This document shows positions 2,703-12,588 of a stretch of 35,872 nt of DNA, piece by piece. The notes under the pieces were generated by a model. The model ran no database searches and was not told the DNA's origin. It was given only the letters and a program-made list of their open reading frames with translations. Position numbers and translations under genes: made by a program. The stretch's first letter is position 1; each line of letters starts with the position of its first letter. Source of the stretch: Thermodesulfobacteriota bacterium (GTDB taxonomy: Bacteria; Desulfobacterota; Thermodesulfobacteria; Thermodesulfobacteriales; Thermodesulfobacteriaceae); contig JAUQPD010000041.1 of assembly GCA_030550555.1 (NCBI GenBank), positions 1 through 35,872 of the forward strand. Reading direction: 5' to 3'.

Positions 2703-4292
2703 GTGTTTTCAAGGCGAGACTTCCTAAGAACATCAGTAATGGTTGCTGTCCTACTCGAAAAAAATCTCTTATGTTTTGGCAGTGCATCTGAAGAGGTGTT
2801 TCCACAGGGTGTAGCAAGTGGTGATCCTACAACAGATGGAATTATCCTTTGGACACGCATAAACCCAGAAGTCCTGAAAATATTAAAAAGAGACCTTGTT
2901 CTTCAGATCTCAGAGTCGCCTGAATTCAAAAATGCATTTACAGGTAAGATCTCCTACGATCAAATTAGTGAAAAAGATGATTTTACTGTCAGAATTGACC
3001 TGAAAGGACGACTTAAACCAAATACACTTTATTTTTATAGGTTTTTGTATGCAGATATTCCCTCATTAACCGGTAAATTTAAAACGCTTCCTCTATCCAC
3101 TGATAAGTTGAGTTTTGCAACTGTTGTATGTCAAAATTATCCAGATGGGTATTATACTGCTTTTAGATATTTATCTAACGAAGATATTGCCTTTATAATC
3201 CATCTTGGTGATTTTATTTATGAAAAAATTTATGGAAAACCTAGAGTTCCAGATAGAGCTATTAAACTACCATCAGGATCTGACATTTGTTTAGATATTA
3301 ATGATTATAGATATCTATATAGAATGTATATTTCAGATCCAGACCTAAAGCTTGCAAGAGCGATGCATCCTTTTATATACACATGGGATGATCATGAATT
3401 TCTTAACGACTATTACTATGACTATGAAAGAAAAGTATGGGGCTATTTTACATCTCATCCATATGGAAGGGATAGAGAAAAAATATTAAACCTAAGAAAA
3501 GATGCCATAAAGGCATGGCTTGAGTATATCCCATCAAGAGTTGTTTTTAATCTTCGTGACCGAGATCCACTAAGCTGGATACGACTCTATCGTGCTCTTA
3601 GTGTGGGCAATCTTTGTGATTTTTTGATCACAGACCTTAGGACCTACAGGGACAAGCAACCTTGCAAGGGAAGGTATGGAGTCCCTGGATGCCCTGATCA
3701 AAATAAGACTTCCATCCTTGGCAAGGATCAGAGAACTTGGTTGCTAAGAAAGTTGGCTAATTCTAAGGCCTCTTGGATTATTCTTGTGAGCTCCGTTCAA
3801 TTTTCACAATCCCTTACTGATGGCAAGTTTGGCTCCCTTGATGCCTGGGATGGCTACAGAAAAGAACGGGATCTTTTACTAAGAACAATAAAGGAGAAAG
3901 GAAGTAAAAATTTAATAGTTGTCAGTGGTGACAGACATGCAAGTTTAGTTGCTGAGATCGTTGATAATTATGAAATGCCTAAGGAGGTTTTAGGTGCTGA
4001 GTTTATGACTCCTGCAATCTCATCAATAAATGCAAGAGAGGGGGGTTGGTGGAAAAGAAATTGGCCCCAGTACTCCACCTTGGAGGATTTTCAAAGAGCT
4101 GAAATGACCCAAAATCCCTGGATAAAACACATAAATTCAATTAACTGTTGGGGATATACTGTAGTTAATATCTCTGATAAAAAAGTTGTGACAATCATCT
4201 ATTCAGTTGATAAGTATAGTAAAGATTCTGAAAAAACAATTGATGGTAAATTTGTTTATTCTCAAGGAAAACTTATTTCTGAAATTTCATAA
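2703..4292 (+). CDS. phoD: PhoD-type alkaline phosphatase/phosphodiesterase, Tat-exported
   Basis: Secreted PhoD family phosphatase (529 aa, close to the usual length), a calcium/iron metalloenzyme acting on phosphomonoesters or diesters outside the cytoplasm. It begins with a twin-arginine signal, SRRDFL at residues 3-8. The PhoD N-terminal module follows (GVASGDPTTDGIILWTRI), then the metal-site blocks HLGDFIYE, TWDDHEFLNDY and VVSGDRHASLVAEI; the Cys of ATVVCQNY matches the conserved PhoD metal-ligand cysteine. The start is GTG at 2703: AGGAGG lies 6 bases upstream and the ATG at 2701 is out of frame and stops after 8 codons. It follows the tonB-like stop by 2 bases, so phosphate-ester scavenging may be the job of the whole operon; that link is inferred. 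Confidence 0.85.
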   Translation: MFSRRDFLRTSVMVAVLLEKNLLCFGSASEEVFPQGVASGDPTTDGIILWTRINPEVLKILKRDLVLQISESPEFKNAFTGKISYDQISEKDDFTVRIDLKGRLKPNTLYFYRFLYADIPSLTGKFKTLPLSTDKLSFATVVCQNYPDGYYTAFRYLSNEDIAFIIHLGDFIYEKIYGKPRVPDRAIKLPSGSDICLDINDYRYLYRMYISDPDLKLARAMHPFIYTWDDHEFLNDYYYDYERKVWGYFTSHPYGRDREKILNLRKDAIKAWLEYIPSRVVFNLRDRDPLSWIRLYRALSVGNLCDFLITDLRTYRDKQPCKGRYGVPGCPDQNKTSILGKDQRTWLLRKLANSKASWIILVSSVQFSQSLTDGKFGSLDAWDGYRKERDLLLRTIKEKGSKNLIVVSGDRHASLVAEIVDNYEMPKEVLGAEFMTPAISSINAREGGWWKRNWPQYSTLEDFQRAEMTQNPWIKHINSINCWGYTVVNISDKKVVTIIYSVDKYSKDSEKTIDGKFVYSQGKLISEIS

Positions 4293-10517: not shown

Positions 10518-10561
10518 TTTTAGAAAATATATAAATTTTTTTGGCTTTTAGGGAGGAACCA

Positions 10562-10798
10562 TTGGAGAAGCTTAAACTGAGAGTTGAAGGGATGACTTGT
10601 GTAAACTGTGCAAAGGCAATAGAACGGGCCCTTAGGAGATATAGAGGAGTAAAAGAGGTAGAGGTCTCCTTTGAGTTGGGACTGGTCTCAGTTGAATATG
10701 AAGAAGAATTTCTTAATCCTGAAATGATTGCCAAGGTGATCAATGATCTTGGCTACAAAGTAATTTCAGAACATAAAAAAAAAGAACCTCTGAAATAA
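10562..10798 (+). CDS. CopZ-like heavy-metal-binding domain (0-frame product of copA)
   Basis: Single HMA ferredoxin-like domain of 78 residues with the metal motif GMTCVNCAKAIERAL (Cys13 and Cys16). The family fold is complete: strand, helix, strand VEVSFELGLVSVEYEEE, then the second helix and NDLGYKVISE. The start is TTG at 10562, because GGGAGG lies 5 bases upstream; the TTG at 10541 would come before that site. The frame ends TAA shortly after a run of nine A (10775-10783). In the -1 frame the sequence continues straight into the first membrane helix of a copper ATPase. The short protein would therefore be a free cytoplasmic copper chaperone, and the shifted one the N-terminal domain of CopA. 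Frameshift or assembly error are the alternatives. Confidence 0.85.
   Translation: MEKLKLRVEGMTCVNCAKAIERALRRYRGVKEVEVSFELGLVSVEYEEEFLNPEMIAKVINDLGYKVISEHKKKEPLK
10775..10783 (+). promoter_or_regulatory. Slippery A9 run, proposed -1 frameshift (or transcriptional slippage) site
   Basis: Nine A followed by G, read as three Lys codons (AAA AAA AAA) in the CopZ-like frame. A -1 slip here changes the downstream reading from the KEPLK-stop tail to RTSEIKLILLFFSLS, which is the normal linker and first helix of a CopA. The 0-frame stop is 12 bases past the run. I see no strong hairpin directly downstream; only 4-bp stems are present. Confidence 0.65.
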
Positions 10799-12588
10799 AG
10801 CTAATCCTTCTCTTCTTTTCCTTGAGTTTTTCAATAATGATCCTCATGTTCCTACATCACCCATATTCTCTTTATATCCAAGCGTTTTTGAGCCTACTTG
10901 TCCAGGTTTTGGGAGGACCAAAGTTTTACAAAGGTGCTATTGCGGGCCTAAAGATGAGGACAGGCAATATGGACCTTTTGATTTCAATAGGAACAACTTC
11001 AGCGTTAATCTACAGTTTCTTAGCTCTCTTCAAGGTAATTCCTGGTGAACCCTTTTTTGAAACTAATGCATTCTTAATATCCTTCGTAAGACTTGGAAAA
11101 TTTATCGAGGAGAGAACAAAAACAAGGGCTCTCTCACTTCTTAAGGAACTTTTTGCCCTCCAATCCTCTCGTGTCAAAGTATGGACTTCAAGTGGGGAAA
11201 TTGAAATAAATGTATCTGACCTATTTCCTGGAGACATAATTGTTGTTAAAACTGGAGACTTAGTTCCTGTTGATGGTAAAATTGTTGAGGGTTTGGTTGA
11301 AGTAGATGAATCTCTGATTTCTGGGGAAAGTGTCCCTATTCTCAAGAAAAAAGGTGATAATCTCATCTCTGGTAGCATTATTGTTAATGGCTATGCCAAA
11401 GTTGAGGTAACATCTCAGGTCGAAAGTAGTTATATTGGAGTTCTTATAAGACTAATTGAAGAGGCATTACAACGAAAACCGAAAATTCAAAGACTTGCAG
11501 ACAGAGTTTCTCACTATTTCGTGCAAATTATTCTTTTGCTATCTGTTGCTGTATTTCTAATTTGGTTCATTAAAACTCAAGAACTCTCCTTAAGTTTTAA
11601 TTTTGCTCTAGCTCTTCTTGTTATTTCTTGCCCCTGTGCTTTTGGTCTTGCAGTTCCCCTTGCTATATTTGTAGGGCTTACAAGAACCTATAAGAGGGGA
11701 ATATTGGTTAAAGATCCTGGAGGCTTTGAAAGGGCAGGGCAAATTGATATACTGATTTTAGATAAAACAGGCACAATTACAGTTGGAAAACCTAAAGTAA
11801 TAGAATTCAACAGTCTAGACGACAAAGCCATTGAGATAGCCTTTAGTCTTGCCTTAACATCTCAACATCCCTATTCAAAGGCTATTGTGGAATATGCAAA
11901 GCAATTTAATCTCTCCCCTATTCAGCTGGGTGAGTGTAGAGAAGTACCTGGTGTTGGAATCTTCTGTGGTGATTATTTCCTTGGAAGAAATCCGTCTGGA
12001 AAGGGACTTATACTGAGAGATAGGGAACAAATTCTTGCAGAAATAGATGTGGAAGATGAAATAAGAATTGAGGCAAAAGAGGTCTTAGAAGACATTCGAA
12101 AAAGAGGTTTGGGGATTATTCTTGCAACAGGGGATACCAGAGAGAGGGCTTCGACTGTTGCAGAGAAATTGGGGATTGAGACCATCTACGCAGAAATTAA
12201 ACCACAAGACAAATTGAAACTAATAGAGGATTTTCAGAAGAGGGGATTGAAAGTTGCCATAGTGGGTGATGGGGTAAACGATGCTCCAGCTATGGCAAGA
12301 GCAGATCTATCCTTTGTTATGGCAGAAGGTGTTGATATTGCCAAGAGAGTTGGCGATGTCATTCTCCTATCTGGATTAAGGGGAATAGTATATTTCTTCG
12401 ATATTGCAGACAAAACAAGAAAGAGAATTTGGCAAAATCTTTTCTGGGCTTTCATATACAACATAATCTCAATCCCGATCGCAGGCGGAATCCTTTATCA
12501 TAAGGGAATTGTCCTCAAACCAGAATTTGCTGGCCTAATGATGGCGCTCTCTTCAGTAAGCGTAGTTATCAATTCAATAAGAAGGTAA
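10783..12588 (+). CDS. copA: Copper-exporting P1B-type ATPase body, reached by -1 frameshift from 10562
   Basis: The -1 frame is open from the A9 run to 12588 and encodes a CopA without its own N-terminal HMA domain. With the domain at 10562 the composite is about 675 residues. Motifs in composite numbering: helices from about 80, the actuator loop ISGES, Cu(I) channel CPC at 357-359, phosphorylation site DKTGT with Asp401, the P1B-specific SQHP, then GDGVND, and C-terminal NLFWAFIYN and MALSSVSVV membrane motifs of Cu(I) pumps. An independent start would have to be TTG 10822, but that has no ribosome site (only pyrimidines upstream) and cuts into the first helix. The pump exports Cu(I) from the cytoplasm. 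A true interruption or a one-base assembly error at the homopolymer cannot be excluded. Confidence 0.88.
   Translation, partial: RTSEIKLILLFFSLSFSIMILMFLHHPYSLYIQAFLSLLVQVLGGPKFYKGAIAGLKMRTGNMDLLISIGTTSALIYSFLALFKVIPGEPFFETNAFLISFVRLGKFIEERTKTRALSLLKELFALQSSRVKVWTSSGEIEINVSDLFPGDIIVVKTGDLVPVDGKIVEGLVEVDESLISGESVPILKKKGDNLISGSIIVNGYAKVEVTSQVESSYIGVLIRLIEEALQRKPKIQRLADRVSHYFVQIILLLSVAVFLIWFIKTQELSLSFNFALALLVISCPCAFGLAVPLAIFVGLTRTYKRGILVKDPGGFERAGQIDILILDKTGTITVGKPKVIEFNSLDDKAIEIAFSLALTSQHPYSKAIVEYAKQFNLSPIQLGECREVPGVGIFCGDYFLGRNPSGKGLILRDREQILAEIDVEDEIRIEAKEVLEDIRKRGLGIILATGDTRERASTVAEKLGIETIYAEIKPQDKLKLIEDFQKRGLKVAIVGDGVNDAPAMARADLSFVMAEGVDIAKRVGDVILLSGLRGIVYFFDIADKTRKRIWQNLFWAFIYNIISIPIAGGILYHKGIVLKPEFAGLMMALSSVSVVINSIRR

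Follow-up and report, generated by a model that had tools for sequence, protein, structure and literature searches.

The copper pump gene copA of one Thermodesulfobacteriota genome reads, from its sequence, in two frames that meet at a run of nine A, with a small copper-binding protein encoded first. The question raised by this locus is whether one gene serves two products or whether an ordinary pump gene has been altered, or misread, by one base. The gene lies in a stretch of 35,872 nucleotides (contig JAUQPD010000041.1), called here the window, and all of its features are on the plus strand. A strong ribosome-binding site, GGGAGG (positions 10551-10556), stands five bases before a TTG start. 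The zero frame opened by this TTG (10562-10798) encodes 78 amino acids with a complete HMA domain (GMTCVNC) and may represent a CopZ-like short product. Codons 72-74 of this frame, AAA AAA AAA, form the A9 run at which the frame changes (10775-10783) and are followed by GAA CCT CTG AAA and, four codons past the run, the closing TAA (10796-10798). From 10777 as far as a stop at 12586-12588 the -1 frame is uninterrupted; it reads on as RTSEIKLILLFF, with AGA at 10783, and encodes a linker and the entire core of a P1B-1 Cu(I) ATPase (CopA). Its product across the junction, HKKKRTSEIK, is like that of relatives. The earliest possible start in the ATPase frame is a TTG (10822-10824), which is probably unused, having no ribosome site and lying within the first hydrophobic helix. 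When the run length was varied by computation, A10 gave a CopA of 675 aa and A7 one of 674 aa, the length found in relatives; A8, A9 and A11 led to a stop at 76-78 aa. Promoter and terminator scans yielded no more than in shuffles.

The 78-aa frame matched PF00403 over positions 2-62 of 62 (56.3 bits) and is thus a stand-alone, complete HMA domain with the MxCxxC motif. It scored below the NCBIfam cut-offs for CopZ (best NF033795, 64.2 bits against 91) and is a CopA metal-binding domain by descent. Solved structures matching the HMA part are metal-binding domains of copper ATPases and CopZ, and those matching the ATPase part are CopA-type copper ATPases. The latter part scored 515.8 bits with TIGR01511 (cut-off 397), as a Cu(I)-exporting P1B-1 ATPase does, and retains the motifs CPC, DKTGT, HP, GDGVNDAPA, YN and MxxSS. 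Its actuator motif (11323-11334) reads SGES where relatives have TGES; five sequences in the copA-type sample of 66 share the SGE(S) variant. Together with the matches to PF00403 and TIGR01511, the sequence confirmed what the initial annotation had described, namely an HMA frame ending just past the A run, a complete CopA in the -1 frame and a single frame if the run were A10 or A7. Its view that the ATPase has no start with a ribosome site and that TTG 10822 would cut a helix was likewise borne out, the helix being kept in relatives.

The genus set consisted of seven genomes including that of the window, and five of the other six carry a copA orthologue; none was found in the sixth, which is 72 % complete. 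In all five orthologues the HMA domain and the ATPase share a single 675-codon frame without A9, with linkers such as HKKKRDYQ, HKKKKDYQ, GVKKKDYQ, YAKKSYDK and SVRKSFEK. The two halves in the window belong together on this comparison, since they form one gene within the same genus. The copA of genome G006 carries an in-frame A8 run with G as the next base. Codons 72-74 of that gene (L003) include an in-frame A_AAA_AAG, where a -1 slip would give the HMA domain with a 28-aa tail.

A wider sample of 66 copA-type genes with an upstream HMA domain, taken as distant copA genes from a GTDB sample, contained 64 genes in one frame. The exceptions were L123 and L125. In L123, from a bacterium, the HMA domain and the ATPase look like two ordinary genes, the ATPase having its own ribosome site and ATG. 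In L125 (Clostridioides mangenotii, about 3390-3578), the copA HMA domain and ATPase occupy different, overlapping frames near an A6. Whether this break reflects error, decay or recoding is undecided, and its site is of another kind than the A9 of the window. A scan of viral contigs found no relatives. Given the single frame in five congeners and in 64 of the 66 sampled genes, the copA split is, as far as this sampling goes, specific to this lineage and no conserved programme; the lack of conservation in relatives counts against the slippage reading.

As the assembly is a 58-contig draft, we asked how far its long homopolymers could be trusted. Own-genome stretches including the window (about 704 kb) were compared with the proteins of the congener G001, giving 761 good query-subject pairs. 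Five apparent frame switches were observed, two of them at RNA genes as judged from sequence, and in this set no protein gene except copA was interrupted at a homopolymer. The genome has 41 distinct A/T runs of at least nine; G001 proteins cross 11 of these, including two A10 runs, without a change of frame. On the strength of these 11 orthologue-confirmed runs and of the absence of another homopolymer break in the set, the assembly is thus reliable at long A/T runs, with a single error possible. Other irregular genes were seen in the same genome. L174 (contig C54, about 1174-2692) holds a decayed gene related to 516-aa G001 proteins, with several stops and frame breaks, beside a scaffold gap; one of its breaks is at an A9, but it was rejected as a parallel to copA on account of its many other lesions. 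On the minus strand of contig C36, an ABC-type ATPase-like gene (L258, about 3069-3393) has an apparent frameshift away from homopolymers, and on contig C4 (L256, about 3507-3862) a 120-aa G001 protein matches in two frames, again an apparent frameshift with no homopolymer nearby.

Long runs were also analyzed in 622 orthologue-confirmed genes of the own genome (193,044 codons), with expectations taken from synonymous shuffles. Six runs of at least nine A were observed within genes against 18-40 (about 28) in the shuffles, and three of at least nine T against 15-26. Runs of A5 to A8 were undepleted (A8, 55 observed and 57 expected), and T7 and T8 were mildly depleted. G001 showed the same pattern, with four runs of at least nine A against about 54 and three of at least nine T against about 56, while A8 runs numbered 141 with 112 expected. 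Baranov et al. used such avoidance to judge which genomes slip at nine A or T (PMC1088944), and runs of nine or more are avoided within genes in both genomes. Quite apart from copA, the sharp avoidance of A/T runs of at least nine in this genus is a trait that can be measured. It is consistent with RNA slippage at copA and supports it, short of proof; however, replication slippage also contributes to avoidance of nines (PMC1088944), and the pattern may stem from that process as well. An A run can also arise here easily by chance, because three lysines would all be encoded by AAA in about 21 % of cases given this codon usage, and this too weighs against a slippage role for the run.

In a PF00403 search of the own genome, the HMA domain of the split copA was the only one found. 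Five congeners (G001, G002, G003, G004 and G006) have an additional HMA protein of 68-70 aa (MTCEHC), in the gene order nusB-like, methyltransferase-like, HMA, cmk and HNH-like (named by recognisable sequence). The same order, with the HMA gene, occurs in the sister-genus genome G007, so the separate HMA gene beside cmk is old. When the corresponding locus of the own genome (L243, contig C47, 29527-31851) was compared with L188, L297, L298, L300, L301 and L328, the HMA gene was missing between the methyltransferase-like gene and cmk, with no assembly gap. The four neighbour genes are on one contig, and the methyltransferase stop is within a few bases of the cmk start. The draft G005 (83 % complete) is also without a separate HMA gene, but its cmk region is absent too and it is uninformative. 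The co-occurrence of the A9 split with loss of the CopZ-like gene is suggestive and favours slippage, though it is seen in a single genome.

The explanation that we consider best, at a probability of roughly 0.4, is a copA split specific to this lineage, with polymerase slippage at A9 yielding a CopZ-like HMA protein together with some full-length CopA. An ordinary copA would have changed by one base in its lysine-rich linker, which left A9 and put the ATPase out of frame with the HMA domain. The run has nine A between compatible frames, and RNA polymerase would slip on it. Unslipped mRNA would yield the 78-aa CopZ-like HMA protein, which may replace the lost separate CopZ-like gene; mRNA with one A more or two A fewer would yield full-length CopA. 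With the same caution we infer that A9 is present in the cell, that slippage takes place at copA and that the cell makes and benefits from both products. This explanation was ranked first because it requires only the A run, because an added base gives the longer product in Citrobacter rodentium tssM (added A, about 20-25 %; PMC4256274) and Shigella mxiE (PMC1088944), and because no stimulator was seen for the ribosomal route. Behind it came an error or minority variant, then an inactivating or phase-variable indel, and then ribosomal frameshifting.

The most credible of the rivals, if a minority reading, is that A9 comes from a mistake in the assembly or its consensus, or from a minority variant; most cells would then have an ordinary copA in one frame, with A10 (or A7). 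All relatives with copA are single-frame, the ATPase has no other lesion, and a long homopolymer in a draft of this kind is the likeliest site of an error. Against this reading stand the other long runs kept in frame in orthologue-confirmed genes and the want of a second homopolymer-linked break in a protein gene across the 704 kb; it would also leave the missing CopZ-like gene without a reason. It seems unlikely that a hypermutable run has recently undergone a genuine indel, in a gene that is being lost or serves as a phase-variable on/off switch and has no useful second product. Replication slippage does mutate long A runs (PMC1088944, PMC3711429), and three genomes of the same family that are at least 99 % complete (G017, G021 and G044) lack HMA domains altogether. 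At conserved columns, private changes amount to 13 % in the window copA against 2-6 % in relatives, which could point to relaxed selection, though no other species in the genus set is as divergent as that of the window, close relatives are absent and the comparison is limited accordingly. However, no further lesion was found across 600 ATPase codons, and the identity of 61 % to the G001 protein is ordinary divergence for a genome with a median of 66 % and 37 % of genes lower. Phase-variable genes are known mostly for surface proteins (PMC3711429), and RNA-level slippage at A9 would be expected even without selection.

Ribosomal -1 frameshifting is improbable as the source of CopA from the A9 mRNA, even though E. 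coli copA relies on ribosomal frameshifting (PMC5009743). A slippery heptamer of the form X_XXY_YYZ is present in the zero frame as A_AAA_AAA inside A9, correctly placed to give the relative-like -1 product. The 90 nt 3' of the run folded no better than shuffles (z 0.09) in a model of stem-loops, none of which rose above chance, and no Shine-Dalgarno-like sequence was seen by inspection just 5' of A9. The shift is unconserved, and its geometry is opposite to that of E. coli copA. Lysine tRNAs bear on ribosomal slippage, and they were not among the tRNAs in the own-genome stretches examined (about 704 kb). Conserved programmed ribosomal frameshifting was rejected, as the relatives are single-frame. 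The initial annotation had proposed a programmed -1 shift and had made its conservation in relatives the test; none of the five same-genus orthologues is shifted, and the proposal fails in that form. It had rightly named transcriptional slippage as a candidate. It is very improbable that ribosomes re-initiate past the HMA stop and start the ATPase on its own, at TTG 10822 or a later ATG. Although this TTG is only 24 nt past the HMA stop and the two domains are separate genes in L123, the candidate was rejected since no ribosome site is present and residues of the first hydrophobic helix, which relatives keep, would be lost.

The locus is either a young split copA read by slippage or a one-base artefact, and its main appeal lies in the missing CopZ-like gene and the avoided nines. 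If A9 is an assembly error, this is an ordinary copA locus. It is rather doubtful that one base turned copA into a slippage-driven dual gene for chaperone and pump that replaced the lost CopZ-like gene, as a counterpart of E. coli CopA(Z) that arose independently and acts at the level of transcription. If so, it would be a second, independent route to a copper chaperone and a pump from one gene, by way of transcription and not translation, which arose in a lineage without a separate chaperone gene. It would also serve as a natural experiment on whether a frame-broken transporter can be sustained by RNA slippage.

Among known systems, Thermus thermophilus dnaX is like the copA described here in having exactly nine A on the coding strand, where slippage would give short and long products (PMC1088944). 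The long product of dnaX comes from unslipped mRNA, and about 50 % is slipped, short product (PMC1088944), whereas unslipped copA mRNA would give the short one; slippage was measured in dnaX and is inferred in copA. Citrobacter rodentium tssM1 and Shigella mxiE share with copA a break just past a homopolymer that one added base restores (PMC4256274, PMC1088944). Their runs are A11 in tssM1 and U in mxiE, against A9 here, their products are secretion parts, and their slippage was shown by experiment. In Buchnera and Blochmannia, in cases cited in PMC5009743, a one-base poly(A) indel likewise interrupts an otherwise intact gene with possible rescue by slippage; a difference is that runs of this kind are avoided in the genome of the window, where hardly any gene is broken in the part that was analyzed. 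E. coli, which lacks a separate copZ gene, obtains the chaperone from frameshifting in copA (PMC5009743, PMC7558416). The parallel with CopA(Z) drawn in the initial annotation thus applies to the gene family, to the product pair of N-terminal metal-binding domain and pump and to the lack of a separate copZ (PMC5009743, PMC7558416). It does not extend to the frames, as the zero frame of E. coli copA gives the pump and the -1 frame the short form (PMC5009743), the reverse of the window copA. For its shift, E. coli copA also depends on a slippery sequence together with a pseudoknot and the nascent chain, whereas the window has a pure A run at which no structure was found.
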